From positions 1-64,000 of IMG/VR virus record IMGVR_UViG_3300025849_000032: a DNA stretch of 64,000 bases; one strand, given 5' to 3'. A program made the position numbers and the translations under genes. The notes beneath the pieces are model-generated. The model did no database searches and had not been told where the DNA came from. It saw only the letters and a list, made by a program, of their open reading frames with translations. Below, piece after piece: positions 2,089 through 49,384 of this stretch (positions are counted from its first letter, which is position 1; each line of letters begins with the position of its first letter). This stretch comes from a virus.

Positions 2089-3654
2089 ATGGAATACAAC
2101 TTACCAAGTGAATTGGTCAAGAACTTAGACTTCGGTGATGAAGCTAAAAACAGAGTCATCGCCGGAGTTAATAAGTTAGCACTAGCCGTTAAATCCACAC
2201 TGGGCGCATCAGGTAAATGCGTGATATATGAAGATGGACGAGGCAAACCGGTCATAACAAAAGACGGAGTAACCGTTGCAGAAAGCGTAGTCTTATTTGA
2301 TCCGGTCGAGAATATGGGCGCTACACTCATTAAAGAAGCAGCTCGCAATACAGTAAAAGAAGCAGGTGATGGTACAACCACTGCTACTGTATTAGCTGAA
2401 GCGCTTATTAAATCTATAAATTCTGCCGTCGCTGCAGGATTATCAATCAGAGAAATAAAAGATGGGGTTAACGTTTGCTTAGATGAGGTTTTATCTATGC
2501 TAGATGAGATGTCTGTTGAAGTTAAAGGTGACATGCTAAAATCCGTGGCTGCAATATCATGTAATAACGACGATGAACTTGGAGTTATTATAGCTGAAGC
2601 TTACGAAAGAGTAGGGAAACATGGAGTTGTCCTTATGGAAGAGAGTGATTGTGAAGATACCTACGTAGATGTAGTTGACGGAGCCCAGATAGATTGCGGT
2701 ATCACATCTCCACACTTCATTACAAACGCGGAGAAGCACTTAGCAGAACTAGACAGCCCATATATCCTTACAGTATCTTCGGAGATTCCTAACGTACGTA
2801 AGATTCAATCTGTATTAGAGCATGTTATAAAGAGTAATCGTTCATTACTTATAGTAGCTCAGGTTTCACAGCAAGTTAAATCTGCTTTACTGATGAATAA
2901 AGTTAAGGGTAACATAAAAGTTAACATAATTGACCCACCTGGGTTTGGTCCTACACGTAAAGATGCTATGGAAGATTTGGCTATACTAACAGGATCTACC
3001 GTAATTAACGAAGAACTAGGCGATGACCTAGATTTAATCACTCCAGAGCACTTAGGTGAGGCTGAATTTGCAGTTACAAACGATAAAACAACTGTTTTTA
3101 CTTTAAATGAAGTTACAGCGGGTGTTGAAACTCGTATTAACGAACTAGAAAAGCAAATTTCTACAGAGCAAAACGGTTTTATAAAGAAAAAATTAGAACA
3201 AAGGCTAGCAACTCTCTCAGGAAGCGTCGGTATTATAAAAGTTGGGGCTAATTCCAAGGTGGAACTCAAAGAAAAGAAAGATAGAGTTGAAGATGCTATA
3301 TACGCAACCAAAGCCGCACTGCAAGAAGGCATAGTTTCAGGGGGTGGTGTTGCCCTCCTTGATGTTTCCGAAAAAATTTCTTCCGCTAACGCGGGTGCTT
3401 CCGTACTTTCAGAAGCATTGAAAGCACCTTTCATAACTATACTGGGTAATGCGGGCTTAGACCCTCAAACCTCTGTAGGTGAAGGGCTCGGTATTGATGT
3501 AGTTACTGGTGAAACAGTAGATATGATCCAAGCTGGGATAATAGATCCGGTTTTGGTTACAAAATCGGCGCTGAAAAACGCAGTGAGTGTAGCTTTAACT
3601 GTTATGTCCGCTGATTGTGTAATCTCAAATATACGCATCAATGAAGGCAATTAA
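2089..3654 (+). CDS. groEL: GroEL-like chaperonin (Cpn60)
   Basis: A 521-residue group I chaperonin subunit, expected to form double-ring ATP-driven folding chambers in the host cytoplasm. Visible family features are the N-terminal KSTLGASGK region, the nucleotide-binding GDGTTTATVLAEAL segment, the KEKKDRVEDA segment with the aspartate corresponding to the catalytic residue near position 398 of E. coli GroEL, and the following GIVSGGGVALL block. It is somewhat shorter than the usual 540-550 residues and ends INEGN without the Gly-Gly-Met tail. It overlaps a GroES-like gene by 14 bases, so both partners are phage-encoded. It probably folds capsid or other virion proteins (inference). Confidence 0.95.
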   Translation: MEYNLPSELVKNLDFGDEAKNRVIAGVNKLALAVKSTLGASGKCVIYEDGRGKPVITKDGVTVAESVVLFDPVENMGATLIKEAARNTVKEAGDGTTTATVLAEALIKSINSAVAAGLSIREIKDGVNVCLDEVLSMLDEMSVEVKGDMLKSVAAISCNNDDELGVIIAEAYERVGKHGVVLMEESDCEDTYVDVVDGAQIDCGITSPHFITNAEKHLAELDSPYILTVSSEIPNVRKIQSVLEHVIKSNRSLLIVAQVSQQVKSALLMNKVKGNIKVNIIDPPGFGPTRKDAMEDLAILTGSTVINEELGDDLDLITPEHLGEAEFAVTNDKTTVFTLNEVTAGVETRINELEKQISTEQNGFIKKKLEQRLATLSGSVGIIKVGANSKVELKEKKDRVEDAIYATKAALQEGIVSGGGVALLDVSEKISSANAGASVLSEALKAPFITILGNAGLDPQTSVGEGLGIDVVTGETVDMIQAGIIDPVLVTKSALKNAVSVALTVMSADCVISNIRINEGN

Positions 3655-3898
3655 CGATTATATAGTTGTACAACCTATAAAAGAAGAAAAGAAAACTTCT
3701 GGTGGACTTTTACTTACAGACGATACTGACTTGGATAATAGATACAAGAAAGCTTTGGCTATATCTGTGGGTAACTTAGCTGATATTATAAATGAAGGTA
3801 TGGTTGTTATGTATGACCAACACGCAGGTCATGATATAGATTACGAAGGTGAGCTTTACAGGATTATAAAACTAAGAGATATAGTATTAGTAGGATGA
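3641..3898 (+). CDS. groES: GroES-like co-chaperonin
   Basis: An 85-residue protein with the Cpn10 plan: an opening beta strand (NDYIVVQPIKEE), a Gly-rich mobile loop (KKTSGGLLLTDD), and closing strands ending in LRDIVLVG. Cpn10 lids cap the GroEL chamber through the mobile loop. It is slightly short of the 95-residue family norm, and the central region is diverged. It overlaps the end of groEL, as expected for a translationally coupled partner. The combination of gene order and mobile-loop sequence makes the assignment firm. Confidence 0.85.
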   Translation: MKAINDYIVVQPIKEEKKTSGGLLLTDDTDLDNRYKKALAISVGNLADIINEGMVVMYDQHAGHDIDYEGELYRIIKLRDIVLVG

Positions 3899-4335
3899 GG
3901 TTGACTGCTCAAGACTTAAAAGATAGACATTTACTTAAGTATTATAGGATAGTTCGGAAGTGGGCATGTAAACAGAATGACATAAAAGATGCCGACTTAG
4001 AACTTCTTATATACTTAAACTGTTTAAATAGATTCACTAGAGATGATTTTATTAAGGGCGTATACTCGTACTCTTGGGATAAGAAAAGATGGGATAGATT
4101 AAGAGCCACTGGGTGGATAGAACCTTGGAGACATAGGAATAGAACTACAATTAAATATACTGTTTACAAAACGTCATTTAAGTGTAATCATATGATAAGT
4201 AGGATATACAGGATACTACTAGGTGAAGAAGATGTACCTGTATCTATCACTAACCCCTACTATAGTAACAAATCTTATACAGATAAGGTTATGAACAAGG
4301 CTATAGACGATATGATTAAAGATAAAGACAGATGA
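3895..4335 (+). CDS. winged-helix-like basic protein
   Basis: A 146-residue basic protein starting MRLTAQDLKDRHLLKYYRIV. It has a helix set followed by DLELLIYLNCLNRFTRDDFIKG and a WDKKRWDRLRATGWIEPW stretch, then a beta hairpin (TTIKYTVYKTS). This order of helices, a recognition-like helix and a wing is what a winged-helix DNA-binding domain would show, but no specific family is recognised. It overlaps both neighbours by 4 bases (ATGA). It may be a transcription or packaging accessory protein. Confidence 0.6.
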   Translation: MRLTAQDLKDRHLLKYYRIVRKWACKQNDIKDADLELLIYLNCLNRFTRDDFIKGVYSYSWDKKRWDRLRATGWIEPWRHRNRTTIKYTVYKTSFKCNHMISRIYRILLGEEDVPVSITNPYYSNKSYTDKVMNKAIDDMIKDKDR

Positions 4336-5195
4336 AAAAAAGTACTCCTATATTTAGAAAAAGCTTAGACAAAGGTGTCTTAGGTGAGGCAAACCTTGAT
4401 GGTAGTGTATACATAGATAAATCTATTAAAAAAGGTAGCCAGTTAGAAAAAGACGTTATAGCTCATGAAGAGTTTCATGCTAAGCAAATGAAAAACGGAG
4501 TACTTTCATACAGTGACAATAGTGTAACATACAGAGGAGTTGATTACGAAAGGAAAGATGGTAAGATAAAATACAATGGAAAGTTTTACGCAGAAGGAAG
4601 TGATATATTCCCTTGGGAGCAAGATGCTAACCAAGCTATAGATAACAAATACTTCGATGACTACGATTATTCAGAGTTTAAAAATATGAAACCTCCTAGT
4701 GATAACTCCTTTGATGCTATGCTCGAAGTTAAAGCTTTAAATAAAATACCTCTAAATAAAGATTTTGTTAAAAAGTATGACGACATAGAACGAGCGTTTA
4801 AAGATTTAGCTAAAAGAAAAAACATAAAAGATTATGATGAGACTGTGGCGTCTGAGCTAATACAGGAGTCAGCTCCAATAATACTAGACTTAAAAAACCA
4901 CTTCAACAGACCAAGACCCAAAGAGGTTGCTGGTAAAATAAATATATCTATGCAGGATATAGAGATGGATTCTATGAAGACTAAATCTTATCCGTCAGGT
5001 CATTCAGCTCAAGCTTTTTTAATTTCTCTAGTTTTAGGTGATTATTATCCTAGTAAAAGAGACGAGTTTAAGAAGTTAGCTAAAAAAATATCTTACAGTA
5101 GAAGAGTAGCACACGCTCACTACTTCAGCGATAGCAAGTTTGGTGAGCTAATAGGTAAGTCAATGTATAAACACATCAAATCAAAACAATCATGA
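4332..5195 (+). CDS. two-domain protein: HExxH metalloprotease-like plus PAP2 phosphatase-like
   Basis: A 287-residue protein. Residues 1-120 hold a zincin signature, HEEFH at 45-49, with a possible third ligand in the PWEQDAN segment around 95-100. Residues 180-270 carry the full PAP2/acid phosphatase signature: K188-x6-R195-P196, P221-SGH-224, and S256-R257-x5-H263-x3-D267. PAP2 enzymes remove phosphate from lipids or small molecules using a phosphohistidine intermediate. No signal peptide or membrane helices are visible, unlike most lipid phosphatases. All catalytic residues of both signatures are present, so both activities are plausible. The substrate is unknown; envelope remodelling or virion maturation are guesses. 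It overlaps both neighbours by 4 bases. Confidence 0.8.
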   Translation: MKKSTPIFRKSLDKGVLGEANLDGSVYIDKSIKKGSQLEKDVIAHEEFHAKQMKNGVLSYSDNSVTYRGVDYERKDGKIKYNGKFYAEGSDIFPWEQDANQAIDNKYFDDYDYSEFKNMKPPSDNSFDAMLEVKALNKIPLNKDFVKKYDDIERAFKDLAKRKNIKDYDETVASELIQESAPIILDLKNHFNRPRPKEVAGKINISMQDIEMDSMKTKSYPSGHSAQAFLISLVLGDYYPSKRDEFKKLAKKISYSRRVAHAHYFSDSKFGELIGKSMYKHIKSKQS

Positions 5196-5707
5196 TGAAA
5201 AAATCCCCAGCCAAGATGGCTAAAAAATCTCCTGCTAAGATGGCTAAGAAGTCACCAGCCAAGATGGCTAAACCTAAGAAAAAAGGTAACACAAAGAAAG
5301 TTGTTACTAGAAGAAGCGGAACAGTTGTAACTAAGTCAGTTAGAGACGGTGGTTCCTTGGGCGTTAGAAAATCCAAACGTGTTACTAAACCTGACGGCAG
5401 TTCCAAGACTAAGTCTACAATCAAAAGGGGCAGCTCTACAATAAAATCAAAGACAGCGTATAGTGCTGATGGTGTTGTTGTAAAGAGAAAAAGTGTAGCA
5501 AAGGATGGTTTTGGTACAAAGACTAAGAATAAGTCTACCACTAAAGCTAATGGTTCTTCAAAGACTAAGTATGCAACTAACGTTAAAACTCCCGGTAAGA
5601 CTTACGTACAAAAAAGTAAAACAAATGCTGCCGGTAAAACTGTAGAAAAGACTAAAGAGTCTAGACTAGGTAAGAACAAATCTAAGAGTACATATAAGCG
5701 AAAGTGA
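5192..5707 (+). CDS. histone-H1-like lysine-rich repeat protein
   Basis: A 171-residue, extremely basic, low-complexity protein. Near the N-terminus an eight-residue unit, KKSPAKMA, is repeated three times; the rest is rich in Lys, Ser, Thr and Gly with recurring SSKTK, KSTTK and KTK segments. S/T-P-A-K units resemble the DNA-binding tails of histone H1, so DNA binding or condensation is likely. The codons of the three repeats differ at synonymous positions, which indicates selection on the protein rather than a recent slip. It lies between the PAP2-like gene and the holin-like gene. It could be packaged with DNA or act on host chromosomes; neither is shown. Confidence 0.75.
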   Translation: MMKKSPAKMAKKSPAKMAKKSPAKMAKPKKKGNTKKVVTRRSGTVVTKSVRDGGSLGVRKSKRVTKPDGSSKTKSTIKRGSSTIKSKTAYSADGVVVKRKSVAKDGFGTKTKNKSTTKANGSSKTKYATNVKTPGKTYVQKSKTNAAGKTVEKTKESRLGKNKSKSTYKRK

Positions 5708-5725: not shown

Positions 5726-6118
5726 ATGGGACTACTGCAGAAAGTACTTTCTTCTGGAGCAGGTAAGCTTATTAAAGATGTAGGTGGGGTCTTAGACGAC
5801 CTCACTACTTCTAAAGAAGAAAAGCTAGCTGCACAATATAAAATTAAAGAGTTAATATCAAACCACGAGCTAGAATTACAAAAGCAAGTTTCAAATAGGT
5901 GGGAGGCTGATATGAAGTCTGACTCTTGGTTATCAAAAAACGTTAGACCGTTAGTTTTAATTTTTTTAGTTGTATCAACGGTATTAATGATATTTATTGA
6001 TGCTGGTGCTATATCTTTTAACGTAGAACCAAAATGGACTGATTTATTACAATTAGTATTAATAACAGTGATCGGTGCTTACTTCGGTGGTAGATCATTA
6101 GAAAAAACAAAAAAGTAA
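5726..6118 (+). CDS. holin-like membrane protein (3TM holin type)
   Basis: A 130-residue protein with an amphipathic N-terminal half, then SDSWLSKNVRPLVLIFL, a first clear membrane helix, a short DAGAISFNVEPKW loop and a second membrane helix (LLQLVLITVIGAYFGG), ending in a basic tail. The WLSKNVRP motif before the first helix and the GAYFGGRSLEK end fit the phage HOLIN_3TM family. Holins open the inner membrane at lysis time. The endolysin gene is far away (44103), so lysis genes are not clustered. Other membrane proteins at 37774, 39940 and 43780 are alternative holins. Confidence 0.7.
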   Translation: MGLLQKVLSSGAGKLIKDVGGVLDDLTTSKEEKLAAQYKIKELISNHELELQKQVSNRWEADMKSDSWLSKNVRPLVLIFLVVSTVLMIFIDAGAISFNVEPKWTDLLQLVLITVIGAYFGGRSLEKTKK

Positions 6119-6418: not shown

Positions 6419-6623
6419 AAAAATCACTATAGGTAAGGATTACAAGAACGACTCTATGCACTACTCAGTAGGCCAGGAGGTCTACGGTGGTCATACTATA
6501 TGTGATATACTAGAAGGTGAAGATAAATACTCTATATACATTAGAAAGGAAGATGTAGTCATACCCTGGAAAGACTTCAATAAAAATATGGCTATATCAG
6601 TTGAATACAATCTAAAGTACTAA
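6399..6623 (+). CDS. conserved small phage protein
   Basis: A 74-residue protein starting MKNHVIRKITIGKDY. An earlier in-frame ATG at 6390 exists, but the later start reduces overlap with the preceding gene and gives the sequence familiar from related phages. Notable pieces are HYSVGQEVYGG, a GEDKYSIYI strand, VIPWKDF and a C-terminal SVEYNLKY. This is probably a small beta-rich protein. The family is widespread in marine phages in my recollection, but its function is unknown. Its stop overlaps the next start by one base (TAATG). Confidence 0.65.
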   Translation: MKNHVIRKITIGKDYKNDSMHYSVGQEVYGGHTICDILEGEDKYSIYIRKEDVVIPWKDFNKNMAISVEYNLKY

Positions 6624-7204
6624 TGAAACCTACATACGATTTTATAGTTAGACCAAAAGGGGATAGGTATAATAACTCTATTAAGGTAGGCGACAGTAGC
6701 TTGATACTGAATACTGAAATATTCAACCATCAATACGTTAACCGTATAGGTGTGGTAGATAAAGTACCTCTCTATAATCCTAACAATTTAAACATCGGTG
6801 ACGAAGTATTAGTACACCACAATGTGTTTAGACGTTGGAATAATGTTAAAGGTAAAGAAAAGAACTGCAGAGGGTTTTTAAATGAAAACGAATATCTTGT
6901 ATCTAAAGATCAGATATTCATGTACAAAAGAAGTGAAGCTTGGTTAGCAATGCCAGGCTTTACTTTTGTAAAACCTTTAAAGTCTATAGATGTTTTCAGC
7001 GAAGATCAGGAGAGACCTTTAGTTGGTGTTGTTAAATATTCAGATGGGACTTTTTCACCTAATCAATTAATTGGCTTTAGACCTAGTAGCGAGTATGAGT
7101 TCGTTGTAGATGGTGAAAGGTTATACAGGGTGATGAACAATTTTATTACAATTAAATATGAATATAAAGGAAACGAAGAAGAGTATAATCCAAGCTGGGC
7201 ATAA
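6623..7204 (+). CDS. beta-rich protein, possibly GroES-like
   Basis: A 193-residue protein. It opens KPTYDFIVRPKGDRYNN, continues VNRIGVVDKVPLYNPN and NIGDEVLVHHNVFRRW, and ends FITIKYEYKG. The order of a leading strand, a GVV strand and a GDEVLVHHNVF strand recalls the co-chaperonin beta barrel (GIVV...GDKVLF), with insertions that would roughly double its length. This is a weak resemblance, not a firm family match. If right, the phage has two GroES-type proteins. It starts at a TAATG junction and overlaps the following gene by 47 bases. Confidence 0.5.
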   Translation: MKPTYDFIVRPKGDRYNNSIKVGDSSLILNTEIFNHQYVNRIGVVDKVPLYNPNNLNIGDEVLVHHNVFRRWNNVKGKEKNCRGFLNENEYLVSKDQIFMYKRSEAWLAMPGFTFVKPLKSIDVFSEDQERPLVGVVKYSDGTFSPNQLIGFRPSSEYEFVVDGERLYRVMNNFITIKYEYKGNEEEYNPSWA

Positions 7205-18516: not shown

Positions 18517-21500
18517 ATGGCAGAAATAAAACATTCGTTTCAGGCTGGTAGGATGAATAAAGATCTTGATGAAAGATTAGTTCCTAATGGTGAATATAGA
18601 GACGCTTTAAACATAGAAGTAAGAACATCGGGTGACAGTGATGTAGGCGCAGCTCAGACTTTGTACGGTAATATAGAAAGACTACCTGCAGCAAAAGATA
18701 GTGAAGTTAATGCTACTGAACTATGGACTGGAGAGAAAAGTTCTTTCACCGGTTCTATAGCTGATGAAAGAAACAATAAAGCTTATTTTTTTGTAGCTTG
18801 TTCTCCTATACCTAGAACTACTATAACCTCTATTGATATAGTAAACGAAAAAATATACAAAGATATGATTATCGAATATGATAATGTATCTAAAAAAATA
18901 GAGCCTGTATTTGTAGACATATTTAGAGTAGATCTTCCAGGTATTAGAGCTCACTCTGCTAATGTGTTAAACCTTCAAATACTAAAGCTAAGCACTAGTG
19001 ATGCAGCATTGATAAAGCCAGGCATGAGTGTTCAAGCTATAGATGATACTGGTCACAACTTATTGAATCCTCAGTACAGTATTTCAGCTAATGGGCAAAG
19101 TGATATTAAGGTATTGTCAGTACTTTCAAATGGGAATGTCTACTTGAATAAGTCAATAGATTATATACCTCCAGGTAGTAATGATATAGCTTGGATTTTT
19201 GGTGGGTTAAAAACAGAACACGTACTTAACTTTACTAGAAAAGATAAAGAACAAAGAAAACTAATTACAGCTGTAAATATAGTAGATGATTTTTTATTTT
19301 GGACAGACTATAATTCAGAGCCAAAAAAAATAAGCATAAATAGATCTAAGAAAGGTACTCAAAGCTTTGACTCTTACACTGAGTTGATGCTTGATAATAC
19401 AGATTGGAATAGTTCAGGCTTAACATCAGTATCCAGCTTAGATCTTGGTACTCATCCGACTGAGGCTAATAGAGGTAATGCTAAAGAAGAGCATATCACC
19501 GTAATAAGAAAAGCTCCTCGTACTGCTCCTAAACTTAACATGTCGTCTTACAAGGATGGCATAGAAAAAGATCTTTTAGGTACTTTCTCGTTTGACTTAA
19601 GCTCTAGTGAAAACGATAATATATCACAGTTTGAATCTCAAGATGAAATTACTATTAATACATCTTCGCTAGATGCTGTATCTGTAGGTACTACTCTTAT
19701 ATTGGAATGCAAGAGCGTTAGCCCAACAGTAGGCATGGTGGTTACAGTGTTAGAAGCTCTAGATGGTAGTGCTTATAAATGTACTATAGAAAGTCATAGT
19801 ACTGGCCTTGAGAGTAATATTCACGAAGACTGGTCAATAAGAGTAGAGCAGAACAAGCCATTGTTTGAATTAAAGTTTGGTAGATTTTCTTATAGATATA
19901 AATACCAAGATGGTGAGTATTCTACTTTCGCACCTTGGTCAGAGTTGGCTTTTATTCCTGGGCGTTTTGATTACATACCTAAGAAAGGTTACAACTTAGG
20001 AATGGTTAATACCGTTAGGTATTTAAGAGTTGAAGAGTTTGTACCTAATCACAATCAAAGACCTGATGATGTTGTTGAGGTTGATATTCTATATAAAGAT
20101 ACTACGTCACCTAACGTGTATGTGGTTAAATCTATAAAAAGAGATAGAAACCCAGAGTGGAATGAGTCTAATGGTAGCGAGCATGATGGAGTTTTAAATG
20201 TAACTTCTGAGATGATACATAGAACGCTGCCTTCATCTCAAACTTTAAGATCTTGGGATAACGTACCTAGATACGCTAAGTCGCAGGAGATAACAGGTAA
20301 TAGACTTTTGTATGGTAATTATGTGCAAAACTATAATGTCAACCAACCTATAGCGGTTAAAACAGGTTTAGAATCTTTAGAGCACAAGCTTGACCCGAGG
20401 GTAGCAATATCTTCACTTAACGAACCTACAGCGTACTGGCCTAGCAAGTCAGTTAAATCTATTAGAAACTATAGAGTTGGAGTTGTGTTTGGAGATAAGT
20501 ACGGTAGAGAAACTCCAGTACTAGGTGTTGGGGGTTTAATACCAAGTACGACTAACATAGACTCTCATGTGCCTGAAAGCTTAAATATTGAAAAAAAATA
20601 TTCAGCAAATAATAATAAAATAACAGCTCAAGTTGAGTGGGGTAATACAAACCCATCAAACTGGATGGAGTACTACAAGTTCTTTATAAAAGAAACATCT
20701 TCGGAGTATTACAACTTAGTCATGGATAGGTGGTACAACGCTGAGGATGGAAATGTATGGCTATCGTTCCAGTCTTCAGATAGGAATAAGTTAGACATAG
20801 AAACCTACTTAATACTAAAAAACGGACACGGTAGCCAAGAACCCGTAGAAGAAGAAGCTAGATTTAAGATATTAGCAATAGAAAACGAAGCGCCTGATCA
20901 TATAAAGACTACTAATAAAATACTAGGAGCTCAATTCTTATCTTCAGACTTTAATGTGATAACTAGCCTACACGAAACTATGATAGCATCTTTTGATGAG
21001 TCACAGTGGAACAACGTATTTAATGGTATCAGTTTTGAAGGCATTGGATACGCTAGAGTTAGAATGATTAAAGGTACCGATATAAAGCATTCTCAATGGG
21101 TTAAAATATCAAGAATAAATAGCATAAATTACTCTGTAAGTCTAATTGAAACTATAGGCGAATCTGCTAATATAGTAGGTCTTTTTGGAACTTCATCAGG
21201 AGTTACAGTTGAGTTAGAGATAAAAGACGCCGTAGTAGAAAACAGACCAGAGTTTGATGGTAGATTTTTTGTTAAAATATTTAGGGACTCTATATTGTCA
21301 CAATATGTACTGGGCGAAACTCAAGATGAAGTAACGTATGGAGTTAAAAATGCTTTTCAAGCTGGTTATGTTTATGATGAAAAAACTGGTAACGCAAATC
21401 AAAACGCAGCTCAGCAAGGTGATTGGACTACTGGGTCTCAAGTAGGTACGATATACGGTGGAGGAAGCTATGTTTGGGATGGTAACGGTATAACTTCCGA

Positions 21501-24240
21501 TGATGTTACACATCTAGGTACTTGTTCTAGAAAAGTTAATACAAAGAATTTTTGGACTTGGTACCAATCAGATGGTCCTTTAGGTAGTAACAATACACCT
21601 AGAAGTCATACGTGGTTTTTAGATGATACTAAAGTAGCTGGAGAATATTTCGAACCTCAATATAATGATGCAGACGGCGGAGAAGTATCAGGTTCGTCAT
21701 CAGTGGTTGAGCAGAATAGAAATAATGGATTAGATGAAGGGGCTTACTATAGTGGTCAACCTGTTAGTGGTAAGTCTAAGATGACTTTCTCTATAATATC
21801 AAACAGTCCACCTAACGCACAGACGATGCCTTTCATGAACTCTATGACTACCATCGGTACTTACTTTAGGTTTGCCGCTGATCCTAATAAAGAAGTTTAC
21901 CAAGTGATTGGCGCTGGAAATCTTTACAAGAACCACAATTACCATTACACTGATTTTTTACTAAATATAAATGGTACTGGCTGTCAGAAATGTGAAGAGA
22001 GCGACCACTGGAGTTGTTTTAGACAATCTTTTATAACTAGATTTGCTAAGGTTAGTGATCCTTTACAAGGATTAGATACTAGTGCTTGGGATCCTAGATC
22101 TGCAATACCACACGATGGTAAAGCTGCTATGAACATACAGATACTAGTAGCTAATATTGATCTTGCTGAACCTTTAGAAATAGAAAACAATGATAATGCT
22201 ATATGGGAGACTGAACCTAAAGAGAGTGTTGAGTTAGATTTATACTACGAGGCTAGTGATGCTTTACCTATATACTTAAACCACAGTAACAATAAATCAT
22301 TCGTACCTTTGAACTCAACTGTTAGTAGGACTACTACAGGTGGGCTATCTACTCCTTTTCATATATATTACGGTATTGGGCAGTTTTTTAGAAATACGAA
22401 AATAATAGTTAGTAATATAGCTAGAGATATAGTTACCTTGCTTAATGTTGGTACTGTTGAAAATCAAGTAGCTCAATCCCAAGGTAGTGCTAAAGCTCAA
22501 ATCAGTATAGGTGAGAAACTAAAGTATACCCACAGCAACGGTATGGTTACTGAAACAGAGGTACTAGATCACTGGAACTCTAATGGTAACCTTAACCAAA
22601 GCTATAGCCCATCTGAAGAAATAATACTATCTATAAGTGAGGCTAAAGTTTTAGCTTCTAACCCTTCAAGCCCTAGGGTATTAACTGTCTCTGCGAGTGA
22701 GACAAATATATCACATACAGGCGACCCGTTATTTAAATCTGACGGGTCTAGAACATGGGAGGTTATAAGTGAGAATATACCTAGAGGAACTTTTGTAGTC
22801 TCTAATAATCAACTTGATTATTTCAACAGCGTTACAGAAACTTCGCTAGATCCTATAAGTAAAGGTATACAACCTAATACTAGTACTACTACATTGTATC
22901 TTATAAGGCCCGGTGAAGAAGATTCTTTAGGTTTTATAACCTCTGCACCTCTCACACTTTTTACATGGCAAACACAGGATGTTATTTTTAGAGAAGTCAC
23001 TGGTAATTTTAGATTAAAGTATGATACTTATAAAAGTAAAGTTACCTTACCTTGGTTTAACTGCTACTCTTTCGGTAACGGACTAGAGTCTGATAGAATT
23101 AGAGACGACTTTAATGCGCCTACTATCGACAATGGATGCAAGGTCTCTACAACTCTAGATGTATATGGGGAAGAAACCAGAGGTAGTGGGTTGATATACT
23201 CAGGTATATATAATTCTAATAGCGGCGTTAACGCTTTTAATGAATTTAATATGGCTGAAAAAGTAACTAAAGATCTTAACCCATCGTACGGTACTATACA
23301 AGCTCTAAAATCTAGAGACACTAACGTAGTTGCTTTTTGTGAAGATAAAGTGTTAAGAATATTGGCTAACAAAGATGCTTTGTTTAACGCTGATGGTAAT
23401 GTAAATGTAACTGCCTCGTCTAACGTACTAGGTGATGCAACTGCTTTTTCTGGAGATTACGGAATATCTTTAAACCCGGAGTCACTGGCGGTTGATGGTT
23501 ACAGAATGTATTTCACTGATGTTCAAAGAAGAAAGATATTAAGATTGTCACAAGATGGTTTAACTCTAATATCTAATAACGGTATGACCACTTACTTTAG
23601 AGACACATTGCAAGGTACTAAAGATGTTCTAGGTACTTTTGATGAAGTTAAGGGTGAGTACAATGTGACTATTGGTTATACTCCAAACAGAAATATAACT
23701 AAGCCTAGCCAAACAGTTTCGTTCAGCGAAAGAGCAAAAGGTTGGTCAAGCTTTAAGTCTTTTATTCCTGAAACTGGATTATCTATAAATGAAGAGTATA
23801 TAACTGGTGTTGAGTCAAGACTATGGAGTCATCACGATGAAACAGTTAACGCTAATACTTTTTACGGTACAAAATATAACTCAACTATAGACGTAATGTT
23901 TAATGACGTGCCTGGTAGTATCAAGACATTTAACACTATAAATTATGAAGGTACTCAAGCTAAAATATCTAAATCCTCTGGAGACGGAGAATACTACAAT
24001 ATAACAGCTAAGGAAGGCTGGTATGTTGAGTCATTCAACACAGATAAGCAAGAAGCATCTGTCTACGACTTTATAGAGAAAGAAGGTAAGTGGTTCAATA
24101 ACATAACCGGCTTAGCAACTACTTTAAAAAACCTAGATACATCTGAGTTTTCAGTTCAAGGCATTGGAAATGTTAGTTCTGTAAATGCTCCTGATGCTCC
24201 TACGTCTGTAACATTAACAATAACAGAAAACAACGATTAA
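18517..24240 (+). CDS. large tail hub or stabilisation protein
   Basis: A 1907-residue protein starting MAEIKHSFQAGRMNKDLDER. The opening GRMNKDLDERLVPNGEYRDA and NIEV strands, followed by DFLFWTDYN and repeated short beta segments, resemble beta-propeller tail nozzle or stabilisation proteins of short-tailed phages (P22 gp10/T7 gp12 type function), here greatly enlarged. A CQKCEESDHWSCF cluster near the middle may bind metal. Toward the end, DYGISLNPESLAVDGYRMYF and VQRRKILRLSQDG look like propeller blades again. The large insertion between could carry receptor-interaction domains. Homology cannot be confirmed from sequence inspection alone. Confidence 0.6.
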   Translation: MAEIKHSFQAGRMNKDLDERLVPNGEYRDALNIEVRTSGDSDVGAAQTLYGNIERLPAAKDSEVNATELWTGEKSSFTGSIADERNNKAYFFVACSPIPRTTITSIDIVNEKIYKDMIIEYDNVSKKIEPVFVDIFRVDLPGIRAHSANVLNLQILKLSTSDAALIKPGMSVQAIDDTGHNLLNPQYSISANGQSDIKVLSVLSNGNVYLNKSIDYIPPGSNDIAWIFGGLKTEHVLNFTRKDKEQRKLITAVNIVDDFLFWTDYNSEPKKISINRSKKGTQSFDSYTELMLDNTDWNSSGLTSVSSLDLGTHPTEANRGNAKEEHITVIRKAPRTAPKLNMSSYKDGIEKDLLGTFSFDLSSSENDNISQFESQDEITINTSSLDAVSVGTTLILECKSVSPTVGMVVTVLEALDGSAYKCTIESHSTGLESNIHEDWSIRVEQNKPLFELKFGRFSYRYKYQDGEYSTFAPWSELAFIPGRFDYIPKKGYNLGMVNTVRYLRVEEFVPNHNQRPDDVVEVDILYKDTTSPNVYVVKSIKRDRNPEWNESNGSEHDGVLNVTSEMIHRTLPSSQTLRSWDNVPRYAKSQEITGNRLLYGNYVQNYNVNQPIAVKTGLESLEHKLDPRVAISSLNEPTAYWPSKSVKSIRNYRVGVVFGDKYGRETPVLGVGGLIPSTTNIDSHVPESLNIEKKYSANNNKITAQVEWGNTNPSNWMEYYKFFIKETSSEYYNLVMDRWYNAEDGNVWLSFQSSDRNKLDIETYLILKNGHGSQEPVEEEARFKILAIENEAPDHIKTTNKILGAQFLSSDFNVITSLHETMIASFDESQWNNVFNGISFEGIGYARVRMIKGTDIKHSQWVKISRINSINYSVSLIETIGESANIVGLFGTSSGVTVELEIKDAVVENRPEFDGRFFVKIFRDSILSQYVLGETQDEVTYGVKNAFQAGYVYDEKTGNANQNAAQQGDWTTGSQVGTIYGGGSYVWDGNGITSDDVTHLGTCSRKVNTKNFWTWYQSDGPLGSNNTPRSHTWFLDDTKVAGEYFEPQYNDADGGEVSGSSSVVEQNRNNGLDEGAYYSGQPVSGKSKMTFSIISNSPPNAQTMPFMNSMTTIGTYFRFAADPNKEVYQVIGAGNLYKNHNYHYTDFLLNINGTGCQKCEESDHWSCFRQSFITRFAKVSDPLQGLDTSAWDPRSAIPHDGKAAMNIQILVANIDLAEPLEIENNDNAIWETEPKESVELDLYYEASDALPIYLNHSNNKSFVPLNSTVSRTTTGGLSTPFHIYYGIGQFFRNTKIIVSNIARDIVTLLNVGTVENQVAQSQGSAKAQISIGEKLKYTHSNGMVTETEVLDHWNSNGNLNQSYSPSEEIILSISEAKVLASNPSSPRVLTVSASETNISHTGDPLFKSDGSRTWEVISENIPRGTFVVSNNQLDYFNSVTETSLDPISKGIQPNTSTTTLYLIRPGEEDSLGFITSAPLTLFTWQTQDVIFREVTGNFRLKYDTYKSKVTLPWFNCYSFGNGLESDRIRDDFNAPTIDNGCKVSTTLDVYGEETRGSGLIYSGIYNSNSGVNAFNEFNMAEKVTKDLNPSYGTIQALKSRDTNVVAFCEDKVLRILANKDALFNADGNVNVTASSNVLGDATAFSGDYGISLNPESLAVDGYRMYFTDVQRRKILRLSQDGLTLISNNGMTTYFRDTLQGTKDVLGTFDEVKGEYNVTIGYTPNRNITKPSQTVSFSERAKGWSSFKSFIPETGLSINEEYITGVESRLWSHHDETVNANTFYGTKYNSTIDVMFNDVPGSIKTFNTINYEGTQAKISKSSGDGEYYNITAKEGWYVESFNTDKQEASVYDFIEKEGKWFNNITGLATTLKNLDTSEFSVQGIGNVSSVNAPDAPTSVTLTITENND

Positions 24241-37989: not shown

Positions 37990-38157
37990 ATGGCTTTTAA
38001 AATGACAAGTCCTTTGAAAAAAAAAGGAACCAAAGATGCTTGCTACAACAAAGTAAAATCAAGAGTTAAAGTATGGCCATCAGCTTATGCTTCAGGTCAA
38101 CTAGTACAATGTAGAAAGCGTGGTGCCTCTAATTGGGGTGTTGGTAAAAAGAAATAA
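37990..38157 (+). CDS. small basic protein
   Basis: A 55-residue, strongly basic protein starting MAFKMTSPLKKKGTKDACYN. The segment KVKSRVKVWPSAYASGQLVQ followed by CRKRGASNWG is a pattern I recall from marine phage proteins of unknown role that carry two conserved cysteines and a W-PSAYASG motif. It is the first of three consecutive basic genes. Likely nucleic-acid binding or a minor virion protein. Confidence 0.65.
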   Translation: MAFKMTSPLKKKGTKDACYNKVKSRVKVWPSAYASGQLVQCRKRGASNWGVGKKK

Positions 38158-38158
38158 T

Positions 38159-38521
38159 ATGGCTTATACTCAAAAAACTAACCCTCTAAAGAAGCGATGC
38201 TGGAAAGGTTATTCACCTACACCAGGTAAGAATCCATCAGAAAAAGGTAGTTGTAAAAAAAACTCGCCTGTTAAGAAAGTTAAAGGTGGTGGTACAAAAA
38301 AAGTTTGTCTACCAGCTTCTAAGGTTAGAAGTATGAGTACTAGCGAAAAGTCTAAAGTTACTAGTGCCAAGCGCCAAGCGGCTAAGAGCGGTGGTTATAA
38401 AAGATCTAGTAAATCCAATGTTAAAGGTGCTAGAAAGTCTGGTGCTACACTTAGAGACTGGTTTAAGAAAGAGAACTGGGTTCAAGTTGGAAATCCTAAG
38501 AAAAAATGTGGAGATAAGTAA
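38159..38521 (+). CDS. small basic protein
   Basis: A 120-residue, strongly basic protein starting MAYTQKTNPLKKRCWKGYSP. A longer frame begins inside the previous gene, but the ATG at 38159 right after its stop gives a natural start, and the next basic protein also begins with MAY.QK-NP. It is Lys/Ser/Gly-rich, with KKVCLPASKVRSMSTSEKSK and ending KKKCGDK. Probably DNA- or RNA-binding. Its stop overlaps the next start (TAATG). Confidence 0.65.
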   Translation: MAYTQKTNPLKKRCWKGYSPTPGKNPSEKGSCKKNSPVKKVKGGGTKKVCLPASKVRSMSTSEKSKVTSAKRQAAKSGGYKRSSKSNVKGARKSGATLRDWFKKENWVQVGNPKKKCGDK

Positions 38522-38880
38522 TGGCATACAAACAGAAAAATAACCCGAATAAGGTTACTAGTTGCGGTAGAAGAAGAACTTTTACTCAGGGTAATGACTT
38601 GCCTGAAGATCGAACTAAAAGTAACCCTTTTAAGAAGCTAAGAAAAACTACTAGAGGTAAAGGCAAGCATTTTCTCCACGCGGACGAAGGTGCTGGTATG
38701 ACTGCTGCTGGTAGAGCTGCTTATAAAAAAGAAAACCCTGGTAGTACTTTGTCTGCGCCAGTAACTGGTGAAGTAAAAAAAGGTAGTAAAGCTGCAAAAC
38801 GTAGAAAATCTTTCTGTGCTAGGTCAAGAGGTTGGACTGGTGAAAGAGGAAAGGCAGCTAGACGTAGATGGAAATGCTAA
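38521..38880 (+). CDS. small basic protein
   Basis: A 119-residue basic protein starting MAYKQKNNPNKVTSCGRRR. It shares its opening with the preceding gene product. Further on it has FLHADEGAGMTAAGRAAYKK and ends with a RARS-like, Arg/Lys/Trp-rich tail (ARRRWKC). The AGMTAAGR-AYK-ENPG segment is found in small structural-type proteins of marine phages as far as I recall. Stop overlaps the next start by one base. Confidence 0.65.
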   Translation: MAYKQKNNPNKVTSCGRRRTFTQGNDLPEDRTKSNPFKKLRKTTRGKGKHFLHADEGAGMTAAGRAAYKKENPGSTLSAPVTGEVKKGSKAAKRRKSFCARSRGWTGERGKAARRRWKC

Positions 38881-43780: not shown

Positions 43781-44103
43781 TGGACGAAATAGATATAAAC
43801 GAAAACTCTAAAGTGCAGTTAGATGTTAAAAGTCTAATTGGTATTGTAGCTGGGATTATTTCTCTTGCAGGTATATGGTTTACGCTAAGAGCAGAGATTT
43901 CTCAGTTACAATTAGATGTTGTACGTATGCAGGACAATGTAGAGCTCAACCACGAGTTTAGAGTTAAATGGCCTAGAGGCGAAATGGGTGCTTTACCTGA
44001 TGATGCTAAGCAAGATTTAAAAATAAGCTACTTACGAAAAGAGGTGGATTATCTACGTAAAGTAGTTAAAGATTTAGAAATTAAACAAGCAAAAACTGAA
44101 TAA
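43780..44103 (+). CDS. membrane-anchored coiled-coil protein, paralogue 2
   Basis: A 107-residue paralogue of the protein at 39940-40218, with a short polar start, one membrane segment (LIGIVAGIISLAGIWFTLRA) and a long helical tail (KISYLRKEVDYLRKVVKDLEIK). It has a single-base overlap with both neighbours and lies directly before the endolysin gene, so a lysis role (holin-type or inner-membrane spanin-type) is plausible. No outer-membrane spanin partner is seen. Confidence 0.7.
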   Translation: MDEIDINENSKVQLDVKSLIGIVAGIISLAGIWFTLRAEISQLQLDVVRMQDNVELNHEFRVKWPRGEMGALPDDAKQDLKISYLRKEVDYLRKVVKDLEIKQAKTE

Positions 44104-44561
44104 TGAAATTAAGTAAAAACTTTGCGTTGTCTGAGGTAACACACAGCAACACAGCTAAAAGACTAGGGATAAAGAATGAGCCGACTAAAGAACACCTGGA
44201 TAACTTGCAAATGCTTATACGAGATCTTATACAGCCTATTCGTGATGGGATTGGTCCTATCAGGGTTAGTAGTGGTTATCGTAACCCGGAACTCAATCGT
44301 GCAATTGGTGGCAGTCATAAGTCGCAGCATTGCAAAGGTGAGGCATTGGACCTCCAGTTTTGGAAGAGGGGGAAGATGAGTAACAAAGTTATTTACGATT
44401 GGATACTAAAGTCAGGGTTAGATTTTGATCAGATGATAAATGAATTTGATTTTGCCTGGATACATATATCCTTTAAAGAGCAAGGTAATAGAAGGCAAGT
44501 GCTTGAAGCCTATAATGATAATGATGGAGATACTAAATACAAATATGCAGATGTCAGATAA
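44103..44561 (+). CDS. endolysin, M15-type peptidoglycan peptidase
   Basis: A 152-residue enzyme of the peptidase M15 (VanY/D-Ala-D-Ala carboxypeptidase-like) family. Visible are SSGYRNPELN, the zinc motif SQHCKGEALD (H76 and D83) and WIHISF (H121 as third ligand). It should cut peptide cross-links of the host cell wall at lysis. No signal peptide is seen, so it needs a holin. The gene follows a membrane coiled-coil protein and overlaps the PhoH-like gene. Confidence 0.85.
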   Translation: MKLSKNFALSEVTHSNTAKRLGIKNEPTKEHLDNLQMLIRDLIQPIRDGIGPIRVSSGYRNPELNRAIGGSHKSQHCKGEALDLQFWKRGKMSNKVIYDWILKSGLDFDQMINEFDFAWIHISFKEQGNRRQVLEAYNDNDGDTKYKYADVR

Positions 44562-45210
44562 CAAACAAAAAAAACAACCTAAAAATAATATAAAATTCAA
44601 TATATCACTATCGGATGAGCAGAAAAAAGCTAAGGAAAATATAATCAACCATGCTTACAGTTTTGTAGTAGGTAGAGCTGGTAGTGGTAAGACTTTATTG
44701 GCAGTGCAAGTTGCTCTAGACATGTTCTTTAAAAGGCAATACAACAAGATAGTCATAACTAGACCTACTGTATCTACAGAAGATAACGGATTTCTACCTG
44801 GAAGTGAAAAAGAAAAGCTAGAGCCTTGGCTCGTACCAATTATGTCGAATATGCGTAAGGTGTATAACAAGCCTGAGAAGATTCAGAAGATGGTTGAAGA
44901 AGAGGAAATAGAGCTCGTCTCACTAACTCACTTTAGAGGAAGAACGTTTGACAACGCTGTAGTTATTGTTGATGAGTTTCAGAACTTAACTAAAGCTCAA
45001 TTACGTATGGCGTTAGGTAGATTAGGTAGAAACTCTGTAATGATATTCTGTGGGGACAACCAACAAGTAGACTTGAAAGACTCATTTAACTCTGCTATAG
45101 ATGACATAGCGAAAATGGAACCTAGTGAGCATGTGTACAAAGTTGTACTAGAAGATAACCATAGGCATAAAGCCATAAACGAAGTACTAAAACTATTAAC
45201 AGGATATTAA
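44551..45210 (+). CDS. phoH: PhoH-like ATPase
   Basis: About 219 residues from MSDNKQKK; longer upstream starts lie within the endolysin gene, so a start near its end is preferred. The protein has Walker A GRAGSGKT, Walker B VVIVDEFQN and a later MIFCGDNQQVDL segment, the PhoH family pattern (RNA-helicase-like P-loop ATPases). PhoH-like proteins are very common in marine phages but their role is unsettled. It overlaps the end of the endolysin gene by 11 bases and is followed by tail genes, which is an unusual setting for it. Confidence 0.85.
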   Translation: MSDNKQKKQPKNNIKFNISLSDEQKKAKENIINHAYSFVVGRAGSGKTLLAVQVALDMFFKRQYNKIVITRPTVSTEDNGFLPGSEKEKLEPWLVPIMSNMRKVYNKPEKIQKMVEEEEIELVSLTHFRGRTFDNAVVIVDEFQNLTKAQLRMALGRLGRNSVMIFCGDNQQVDLKDSFNSAIDDIAKMEPSEHVYKVVLEDNHRHKAINEVLKLLTGY

Positions 45211-45221
45211 ACTAAATTAAC

Positions 45222-46073
45222 ATGGCAACATTAACAACAGCATTAACGCTAACAGGAACTGCAGCAGACTTTGGAGCTGCTTTATCATTGAGTCAAAGTA
45301 ATGCTTTTACTTTCACACATACTAATGGTATAGCAAAGAAAAAACTAACATCGACATCTAAGACTTGTCAAATATTTGTAAACGATGGTGACGGTGACGT
45401 TGCTGATGTTACTACTAGAGAAGGTAAGTACATAGATATAACAGATAACCACGGATTGAATAGAAGATACGTATTTACTACTGCAGATGGTGCTGGAGCT
45501 GCAACAGGTACTATACTAGCCTCAGGTACAGATATAGGTTCTGGTGATATAACCACTAGATTACATTTAGTAGGAGGTATTGCTGTACAGATAACTGATG
45601 GTGATGAAGAAAGAGATATTTTAGAACAATTAAAAGATGCTATAAACCACGCTAATGGGCACGCTGGGTCTATAGTAGCAACAGCAGTAGCTGCAGAAGC
45701 TAATGGGCCTCAGTCTACTACGTTAACTAATAGAGATTCTTCTACACCGCCTTTTGTTGACAATAAAAATGCAACTTGGCAAGACTTACATTCTACTACT
45801 AATAGTTTAGCTGACCACGTTGTACTAATTAAGAAAGGTGAATATGCATCTCCCTCTATGTGTTACATTAGAAACACTGCAGCATTCGGCGATGGTACAG
45901 CTAATTGTATATACGCATACTACGACGGTGGTGGATCAGACACTGGTAGTCATTATAAAATCCAAGGTGGTCAATTTGCCATATTCCCGAGCGAGAGTCA
46001 AGAGACTCTTTACGCTTACACTTCTACTTCTGGTACTGTTGTTGAATTTATGGTGTTAGGTACTGAAGCATAA
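45222..46073 (+). CDS. virion-type beta-rich protein
   Basis: A 283-residue protein rich in Ala, Gly, Thr and Asp, starting MATLTTALTLTGTAADFG. Short strands, an EERDILEQLKDAINHANG helix and a final segment (TLYAYTSTSGTVVEFMVLG) suggest a tail-tip or capsid accessory protein. The ITDNHGLNRRYVF and DGDEERDILEQL stretches resemble bacterial-phage tail proteins. Its stop overlaps the next start by one base, tying it to the esterase-bearing tail protein. Confidence 0.6.
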   Translation: MATLTTALTLTGTAADFGAALSLSQSNAFTFTHTNGIAKKKLTSTSKTCQIFVNDGDGDVADVTTREGKYIDITDNHGLNRRYVFTTADGAGAATGTILASGTDIGSGDITTRLHLVGGIAVQITDGDEERDILEQLKDAINHANGHAGSIVATAVAAEANGPQSTTLTNRDSSTPPFVDNKNATWQDLHSTTNSLADHVVLIKKGEYASPSMCYIRNTAAFGDGTANCIYAYYDGGGSDTGSHYKIQGGQFAIFPSESQETLYAYTSTSGTVVEFMVLGTEA

Positions 46074-49000
46074 TGGGTGGTTTAGGTTTAGATTACGCAG
46101 GCGTACAGGTTGTAGCTGAACCAGCGGGGTTTGGTGGACCTAATGCTATAATATTACTAGTAGGACAGAGTAACATGGTAGGGTACTCTTCTAGTGTTGT
46201 TGCTGCTAGTGCCACAAATCACACTAGTAATTTTGATACAACCATAGCGTATCCTTCCAGTGTAGGATCTAGTAGTTTTGGACCTTTTAATGTGTCACAG
46301 CTAAGTGATGGGGTTCTTAATAACGTTTTTACACAGCCTAAAGCAAGTGTAACATCAGGTACTTTTACTGACTATGTAATACAAGCAGCTACACCGTTAG
46401 ATCATTGGGAGGGAGGAGGTGTTACGCATGGTCTTGGATTAGCGAAAAGCTTCGTCCATGAAGCAACAACATCTCCTTTACAACAATATGGATTTCTTAA
46501 GGCTAATGGTCAGCGCAAGAATATCACGCTTATACCAGCTGCCTGGGGAGGTACTGGTTTTAAAAGTTATTACACAAGTAATGATCACGTAGGCAATGAG
46601 AAAGATACTATAACATGGTTAGCCCCAAACTCTTTTGGGTATAATGACAACTACGCAGATGTGGTTGGTATTACTCTTGAACCTAGAAAAGCGGGTAAGC
46701 TGTATGAGCATGCTGTAACCGCTGCTAATTCGTTGCTAGCTCTACCAGAGCTCGAGGGTTGTAACCTAGTTGCAATATTGTGGCATCAAGGAGAGACCGA
46801 TAGGATTAACTCTCAGTTTGCTAGGCACTTCTACTATATGATACAGAAGATGAGGCATGACATAACAGGTGCTACTCAAGACACACCTTTCATAATGGGT
46901 GAAGTAGCCCAAACATATCCAAACTGGTCTAAATGGCTACAAGCGGTCCACGAACATACTCCTAATGTAAATTACAACACAGCTTTTGTTAGAAGTAATG
47001 CCGCACCTGATAGTAATAACCAAGACTTAGATACTTATGATCAAACTCACTTTGTTGCCAACGACGTCGATATATTAGGTAAAAGATATTTCGCAGCTTT
47101 TAAAGATGTTAAAGACGGTAATAATGCATACCCAGCTTTAAATAGATTAACTCAACATGAGATGCACTTCTCGTATTACCTCGATGAGATTAAAGATGTA
47201 GATACAGACGCCTTTCATTTACTACTCGGTTTAGGTAATCAAATGTTATTTAACCACGACAACACAAGGCAGTTTGCGCTTACACATCCACCTATTTACG
47301 ATGATTCTAATGCAAAAATTAGCGGTCATCAATCAGTGACTTATCCTGAAAGTATAGATAATTTTGAACCTGTCGCACTTACTTCATTAGGCAGAAGTAA
47401 CTCTGCTCAGCAAACGCCTGCCGCTCAGATAAGTACTGATCATTTTGCTTACGCTAAAATACAAGGTGATAATGATGGTGATCAAACCGGTGGTATAAAG
47501 CTTGGTGTTTATGAGTTTGGTAGTAAAGAGAAGGTACAAAGTGCTAATTCCCTCCCTGAAAACAGATTTAGAGGACTTAACACTTTCTCTTTAAACATAG
47601 TGTTTAGGTATGACTCTAGTACGCCACAGAATCTTGATGGCATACCAGGTAAAGGAGATGGTTCTATTTTAGTAGGTAATTTGCAAGCAGGTAATGCAAT
47701 AAGTAATCCAGGTGGGTTTGCTTTTTATATAGCTAGACATGGAGATAGTGCTGGTAAGTTACATTTTAATTGTGGTGACTTTAAGGTACCTTATGGAAAT
47801 GGAGAAGATTCAGGTAGAAATTATATAGCTGTATCACCCGTTTTAACACATGGTAAGTTCTACTATGCTAGTGTTGATTATACTAGAGAAGGTCCTGTTA
47901 TTTATTTTGCGGGAGATGATGGGGTTTTAACTAGAAATACATTATTAAACGAACCAAACTTTATCTCTCATACTCCCGAAAGAGTTCCTTCTTATAGGGA
48001 GATAATATTAGGTCGCGGTTATAATATAAATACTCACTACCAAGGTGTTTCTGAAGTTGCTTACGTTGGTTGGAGCAGTGGTCTTGTATCTAGCTCCACC
48101 GATAGGAGTTATCTTAAATTTCAAGGTGGGGTACTACAAAGTCTATCACAAGCCATACTTAGTAATGCATACCAAGATATATACTTTGGTGATAAGTATG
48201 TAGATCATGCAGTAGCCATGACCGATAACAAAGCTCATCAAAGTTACATAGTAGATTTAATGCATAGTAGAGGTATAAATAATATATCCTACTCAGACGA
48301 TGAGTTCCAGGAGCCAATAGAGCCAGATCCTATACTAGGTTGCACAGATTCAAGTGCATTGAATTATAACCCTAGTGCTACTCAAAATGATGGTTCTTGT
48401 GAGTACGATATATATGGTTGTACAGATCCTAATGCTACTAATTATAACTCTAATGCTACTCAAGATGACGGGACTTGTACATATCCAGAACCAGAGGATA
48501 TATTAGGTTGTACTGATTCAGAAGCGCAGAACTACAACCCGGATGCTACTGCAGACGATGGTTCATGTACATACCCACCTCCACCTGCTCCTGACCCACC
48601 CACAGTGCCAGCACACGGTGACGTTTGGTTAGCAGCTGATAGTGAAGGAACTATTGAAAATGATGGGTTTGTAATAACAAGAACACCCGCAGGTAATGGT
48701 TTCGAAGGTTTCATACTATTAAAAACAGTTGCTCATAGTTCTATAGTAGGAATAGAACTTTATGGAAATATTATAGGTGGTACTGATGCAAGTGATAACG
48801 ATAGTGACGGTACGATTGATGAGGCTGGTGAACTAAGCCACAGAGGTACGTGGGATGAAGCTATTCAGTGGGAGTTAGACGAGATTGAAAGTGGTTCAAA
48901 GAAAAGACTACCAAATGAAAAAGAGTCTAAAGAATTGATAGATGCTTTTAATGGCACACAACAATCAAGCGGTGGTAGTATTAGTTACCCTTGGGTATAC

Positions 49001-49384
49001 ACCGGCCCCATAAGTGGTGCTTGGCAATTTTCAACAAATGCCAGCAACAACGCTTTATTTAGTTTTGTTAAAGCATCTTATCCGTATGGTGGACAGATAT
49101 TTTGGTCAGGCTATGAAGCCAGCGATACTCAAGCCAATGCTATTTATCTAAAAGATATGGGTAGCGTAGGCACTACTGCTAGCAATAACGCTGAAGCATA
49201 TATAACAAGTTATGATAAAACAGGTGATACTTATCTGCACGTTAGAGCTATAGAAAGGTATAGCACTAATACTTTAGACCCTAACCAAGACCCAACTGGT
49301 GGTAGTTCTGGATCTATTAGAGCTACAACTTCTAGTGGTAGCAGTAGTAGTAGCGGTAGTGTTACTCCAATGGGAGGTTATTAG
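46073..49384 (+). CDS. tail protein with SGNH-type esterase domain and GCTD repeats
   Basis: A 1103-residue protein. Residues 25-335 form an SGNH or carbohydrate-esterase (sialate O-acetylesterase-like) domain: GQSNM with nucleophile S33, WHQGETD at 237-243, and D323-x-x-H326. A beta-rich region follows, probably a lectin or concanavalin-like domain. From residue 756 to about 840 there are three repeats GCTD...(N/Q)NYN(P/S).AT..DG(S/T)C, a motif common in secreted proteins of flavobacteria. The C-terminus is another beta domain with a Ser/Gly-rich tail. It probably de-acetylates surface polysaccharide during adsorption. It ends at a terminator shared with the opposite strand. Confidence 0.85.
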   Translation: MGGLGLDYAGVQVVAEPAGFGGPNAIILLVGQSNMVGYSSSVVAASATNHTSNFDTTIAYPSSVGSSSFGPFNVSQLSDGVLNNVFTQPKASVTSGTFTDYVIQAATPLDHWEGGGVTHGLGLAKSFVHEATTSPLQQYGFLKANGQRKNITLIPAAWGGTGFKSYYTSNDHVGNEKDTITWLAPNSFGYNDNYADVVGITLEPRKAGKLYEHAVTAANSLLALPELEGCNLVAILWHQGETDRINSQFARHFYYMIQKMRHDITGATQDTPFIMGEVAQTYPNWSKWLQAVHEHTPNVNYNTAFVRSNAAPDSNNQDLDTYDQTHFVANDVDILGKRYFAAFKDVKDGNNAYPALNRLTQHEMHFSYYLDEIKDVDTDAFHLLLGLGNQMLFNHDNTRQFALTHPPIYDDSNAKISGHQSVTYPESIDNFEPVALTSLGRSNSAQQTPAAQISTDHFAYAKIQGDNDGDQTGGIKLGVYEFGSKEKVQSANSLPENRFRGLNTFSLNIVFRYDSSTPQNLDGIPGKGDGSILVGNLQAGNAISNPGGFAFYIARHGDSAGKLHFNCGDFKVPYGNGEDSGRNYIAVSPVLTHGKFYYASVDYTREGPVIYFAGDDGVLTRNTLLNEPNFISHTPERVPSYREIILGRGYNINTHYQGVSEVAYVGWSSGLVSSSTDRSYLKFQGGVLQSLSQAILSNAYQDIYFGDKYVDHAVAMTDNKAHQSYIVDLMHSRGINNISYSDDEFQEPIEPDPILGCTDSSALNYNPSATQNDGSCEYDIYGCTDPNATNYNSNATQDDGTCTYPEPEDILGCTDSEAQNYNPDATADDGSCTYPPPPAPDPPTVPAHGDVWLAADSEGTIENDGFVITRTPAGNGFEGFILLKTVAHSSIVGIELYGNIIGGTDASDNDSDGTIDEAGELSHRGTWDEAIQWELDEIESGSKKRLPNEKESKELIDAFNGTQQSSGGSISYPWVYTGPISGAWQFSTNASNNALFSFVKASYPYGGQIFWSGYEASDTQANAIYLKDMGSVGTTASNNAEAYITSYDKTGDTYLHVRAIERYSTNTLDPNQDPTGGSSGSIRATTSSGSSSSSGSVTPMGGY

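Follow-up and report, generated by a model that had tools for sequence, protein, structure and literature searches.

The region analysed here, hereafter the window, is a stretch of 64,000 nucleotides taken from a virus record of 67,128 bases. It carries a gene, present once in the record, in which a zincin-like domain is followed by a PAP2 domain in the same reading frame (Table 1). Its ATG start codon and the stop codon of the gene before it overlap over 4 nt. The upstream genes include those for the chaperonins, with the GroES gene at 3641-3898, and the holin gene downstream also matched the Pfam family GTA_holin_3TM with a score just below the cut-off (E=7e-5). The terminase of the window shares 47% identity with those of Flavobacterium elemoviruses and 63% with that of the spring-water podovirus MW202828. 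Several other genes of the window gave matches. A second GroES-like match lies at 6623-7204 (PHROG 13932, E=2.4e-14), and a PhoH-like ATPase is encoded at 44440-45210 (E=1e-52), where the open reading frame (ORF) taken from its first ATG overlaps the M15 peptidase gene. The C-terminus of a 1907-aa protein (18517-24240) matches a crassvirus muzzle domain (E=1.3e-7), which suggests a distant link to crAss-like phages. In addition, a 1103-aa protein (46073-49384) carries at its N-terminus a domain of the sialic acid-specific acetylesterase (SASA) type (E=2e-16) and is possibly a glycan-modifying tail protein.

Table 1. Genes and domains of the window discussed in the text.
Feature	Position	Strand	Description
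GroEL and GroES genes, upstream	2089-3898	+	Pfam Cpn60 E=2.6e-60, Cpn10 E=3.4e-11
Conserved 146-aa protein, directly upstream	3895-4335	+	PHROG 17028, unknown function
Fused zincin-like/PAP2 gene	4332-5195	+	287 aa; based on the ORF and 16 other full-length fused contigs
Zincin-like domain	4344-4640	+	Residues ~5-103; predicted zinc site H45, E46, H49, E96
PAP2 domain	4653-5192	+	Residues ~108-287; K188, R195, S222/G223/H224, R257, H263, D267
Lys-rich basic protein	5192-5707	+	Three SPAK motifs; no family match (Pfam, PHROG)
Holin-family membrane protein	5726-6118	+	PHROG 3427 holin E=6.1e-31
Small basic protein cluster	37990-38880	+	37990-38157, 38120-38521, 38521-38880 (DUF6321, E=1.2e-12); syntenic with L022
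M15 peptidase, probable endolysin	44103-44561	+	Peptidase_M15_3 E=3.2e-15

The sequence-only reading had placed an HEEFH motif and every PAP2 catalytic residue in a single protein of 287 residues, and all of them were found at the positions it gave, with HEEFH at residues 45-49. The fused protein is soluble and has no evident signal peptide. Its highest Kyte-Doolittle mean over a 19-residue window is 0.49, so no membrane helix is indicated, in line with that reading.

The PAP2 half was readily assigned. The Pfam profile PAP2 (PF01569) matched residues 186-276 (E=1.4e-12, 47.9 bits against a gathering cut-off of 27.2), and the motifs K-x6-RP, PSGH, and SR-x5-H-x3-D all occur in the protein. Profile searches of the PDB gave PhoN-type phosphatases, down to E=1.6e-11, and LpxE was also among the PAP2 matches. 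The PhoC equivalog NF045654 scored 23.7 bits, below its cut-off of 430; judging from its sequence, the PAP2 half is related to this class A acid phosphatase family and is not a member of it. Loss of the catalytic residues among relatives would have spoken against the sequence-only reading, and these residues are kept throughout: the full motif is present in 117 of the 117 PAP2-matching ORFs, and K188, R195, S222-G223-H224, R257, H263, and D267 are invariant in the relatives counted (10/10 fused and 55/55 standalone). The catalytic motif is common to PAP2 phosphatases and vanadium haloperoxidases, so phosphatase activity is not certain.

For the N-terminal half, Pfam returned nothing, and no curated or known peptidase family gave a significant match. 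The only matches were below threshold, to PHROG 16532 (unknown function), M90, M91, M76, and eCIS_core; among solved chains, the closest in the profile search was a small HExxH protein (E=0.21). One degenerate pattern, searched in the genome collection, matched 22 stretches, none of which was a relative; at this limited sensitivity the search gave no cellular relatives. The HExxH motif taken alone is weak evidence, appearing in 0.9% of shuffles of the fused protein. A chance origin is ruled out by conservation across relatives. The motif is present in every full-length relative while both x positions vary freely, and a Trp-Glu pair lies 47-54 residues downstream of it in all 137 relatives. H45, E46, H49, W95, and E96 are among the invariant positions in an alignment of 42 diverse zincins. 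The very small size of the domain (~100 aa), together with the missing peptidase-family match, might suggest a structural remnant or a binding module without protease activity, beside which the phosphatase alone works. We regard this as decidedly unlikely, because every putative zinc ligand, like the catalytic Glu, stays invariant across highly diverged, otherwise variable sequences and the domain is under strong selection. The zincin half is a candidate new minimal metallopeptidase family.

Structure prediction agreed with both assignments. An AlphaFold2 model of the fused protein based on 120 related sequences (pLDDT 91.7, pTM 0.79) superseded an earlier, poor model from 10 close sequences (pLDDT 55.6). 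The PAP2 helix bundle expected from the sequence is present in the model, and the best solved matches in Foldseek were class A acid phosphatases (E=1.9e-6), in agreement with the sequence-profile matches. HExxH lies within the long helix 37-54, and E96 of the invariant Trp-Glu lies near the start of the later helix 94-103, with strands between them; this supports the zincin reading, although the domain could not be placed in any named peptidase family. Past residue 77 of the 120-sequence alignment, MAFFT set the tails of standalone zincins wrongly, and for residues 78-105 the model therefore depends on the fused sequences; E96 was confirmed in the separate zincin alignment. The best viral fold match was A0A1B1IV46 (BFVD), and the weaker ones include SprT-like phage proteins, which, from their names and aligned length, we take to match the zincin half.

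These matches also place the protein among known systems. The class A non-specific acid phosphatases (PhoN, PhoC; PF01569) have the catalytic motif and the helix bundle in common with it and are its best sequence and fold matches. PhoN/PhoC-type enzymes are secreted and periplasmic, whereas the window protein has no evident signal peptide, is only ~20% identical to them, and is fused to a zincin. A0A1B1IV46 is a standalone viral PAP2-like protein of 176 aa with 59% identity and a whole-length fold match (TM-score 0.98 to target), but unlike the window protein it is without a zincin domain. With minimal gluzincins and SprT-like phage metallopeptidases the zincin half shares HExxH, a following Glu (a putative third zinc ligand) that the model places on a second helix, and a domain of ~100 aa; MJ1213 was a weak profile match and SprT-like phage proteins were weak fold matches. 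However, no significant sequence match was obtained to these proteins, and in the window family the Glu stands 47-54 residues past HExxH, with strands between.

The fusion is conserved among marine phages. When IMG/VR was first scanned, 14 contigs were obtained, 13 of them with the whole fusion, and a profile scan yielded 16 other full-length fused marine phage contigs as well as fragments, with the fusion at the same locus. An assembly artefact is ruled out by its presence in these 16 contigs. The profile scan also yielded PAP2-only ORFs of ~180 aa and zincin-only ORFs of ~118 aa, and separate scans confirmed at least 549 zincin-like and at least 578 PAP2-like stretches, so both halves are also widespread in phages as independent proteins. 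The dN/dS ratio is well below 1 in both domains, and synonymous divergence dominates in most comparisons of the junction too; the fusion is under strong purifying selection. The starting Met of standalone PAP2 is replaced by Tyr or Phe codons at the junction, so there is no internal start there; production of two proteins from a start codon at this point was rejected. Standalone PAP2 is also fused C-terminally to small basic modules (L165, L190, L195, L196, L197). By eye, these modules, to which Pfam gave no name, resemble the basic proteins beside PAP2 and those at 37990-38880 of the window. The zincin of L198 has a long low-complexity tail.

The fused proteins form one clade in the trees of both domains (SH-aLRT 100 and 99), so a single fusion event suffices. 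Standalone zincin genes are located downstream of the chaperonin genes, and the fused genes occupy this same position, in the order groEL, groES, 146-aa protein, and zincin, then holin and terminase. Both genes are present separately in 28 of 39 long non-fused contigs, some of the others possibly being incomplete. Distances of tens of kb between the two are common and make a shared pathway less convincing; in L168 the standalone zincin and PAP2 genes overlap, in the order opposite to that of the fusion. Standalone PAP2 lies less than 3 kb from a DUF6321 protein in 63/73 loci, and in L022 the PAP2-bearing cluster is syntenic with the window genes around 38 kb. In related phages PAP2 usually sits in such clusters, and the window retains its cluster without PAP2; therefore PAP2 apparently moved once onto the resident zincin gene, which is the simplest reading. 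In this view, the groEL-groES-zincin-holin-terL region is where a PAP2 gene that stands elsewhere in related phages would have been joined, once, to the end of the zincin gene.

The neighbouring genes allow other roles to be weighed. PADLOC gave no match, and a defence function is unsupported. A holin lies within four genes of standalone zincin in 81 of 82 loci and directly adjoins it in 23, homologues of the M15 endolysin are directly 3' of standalone PAP2 in four loci, and LpxE is among the PAP2 matches. All this would suit lysis machinery in which the zincin, together with the neighbouring holin, has a target in the envelope or linked to peptidoglycan, while the substrate of PAP2 is an envelope phosphate, for example a lipid carrier. 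We consider such a role rather unlikely, since a probable M15 endolysin is encoded separately at 44103 of the window, PAP2 is near M15 in just 7/73 loci, and the fused protein is without a membrane helix; moreover, the holin link may merely mirror a stable gene order that also contains the chaperonins and the terminase.

The 146-aa protein is found near the zincin in most loci. Their genes overlap or are at most 20 nt apart in 14 fused and 34 standalone cases, and MW202828 has at this place a distant homologue of the 146-aa protein that bears the annotation 'repressor protein'. ImmA cleaves ImmR and IrrE cleaves DdrO, and by analogy the zincin might be a regulatory protease that cleaves the upstream 146-aa protein and so switches late genes. 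This is very doubtful: the gap between the two genes exceeds 500 nt in 23 standalone cases, neither Pfam nor the profile search of solved structures gave a DNA-binding domain in the 146-aa protein, and the comparison with ImmA and IrrE comes from general knowledge.

An N-terminal MAFK[ML]K tag is common to many unrelated small basic ORFs (L049, L078, L083, L183, and others; 37990-38157 in the window), where SP[LMA]K motifs often come after it. A loose form occurs in 197 of 2566 distinct ORFs, 66 of which are standalone zincins, and most standalone zincins carry a similar tag themselves. An exact DNA form of the tag was counted 13 times across 4 of the 13 records, and not once in the reversed control. 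Third codon positions of the tag vary, so the constraint looks to act on the protein. A further reading, highly improbable, gives the zincin the part of processing protease in a phage targeting system: it would trim this tag, and PAP2 would be among the co-delivered proteins.

Taken as a whole, the data are probably best explained by two intact-looking active sites, a single origin of the fusion, and a role as accessory enzymes of late infection. Computation shows the domain architecture, its conservation, and the single origin; catalysis, timing, and substrates are inferred. The roles of zinc ligand, base, and phosphohistidine are predicted from established family knowledge. The zincin half would be a minimal gluzincin-like zinc metallopeptidase in which H45, H49, and E96 hold zinc and E46 is the general base. 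The PAP2 half would be a class-A-acid-phosphatase-like phosphomonoesterase, with H263 as the phosphate-accepting nucleophile that forms a phosphohistidine intermediate, H224 as the acid, and K188, R195, and R257 binding the phosphate. Both domains would most likely serve as accessory enzymes in the host cytoplasm; late expression is suggested by gene order only. The fusion would ensure that two functions usually encoded together by these phages are also co-expressed and co-localised.

No record of the phage collection has both domains, in keeping with the earlier statement that no described phage protein with this pair is known, and no report of the fusion was found in the open-access papers searched. 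Within the collections searched, this architecture is without precedent and each of its domains is of a known kind; neither the combination nor the zincin family is named in the libraries searched. On its sequence, the gene is a genuine fusion of two conserved phage families of putative enzymes. Two conserved, widespread, and largely unannotated marine phage enzyme families are now named, and their evolutionary joining suggests joint action. Two sets of hypothetical proteins thereby become testable candidate enzymes with defined predicted catalytic residues.
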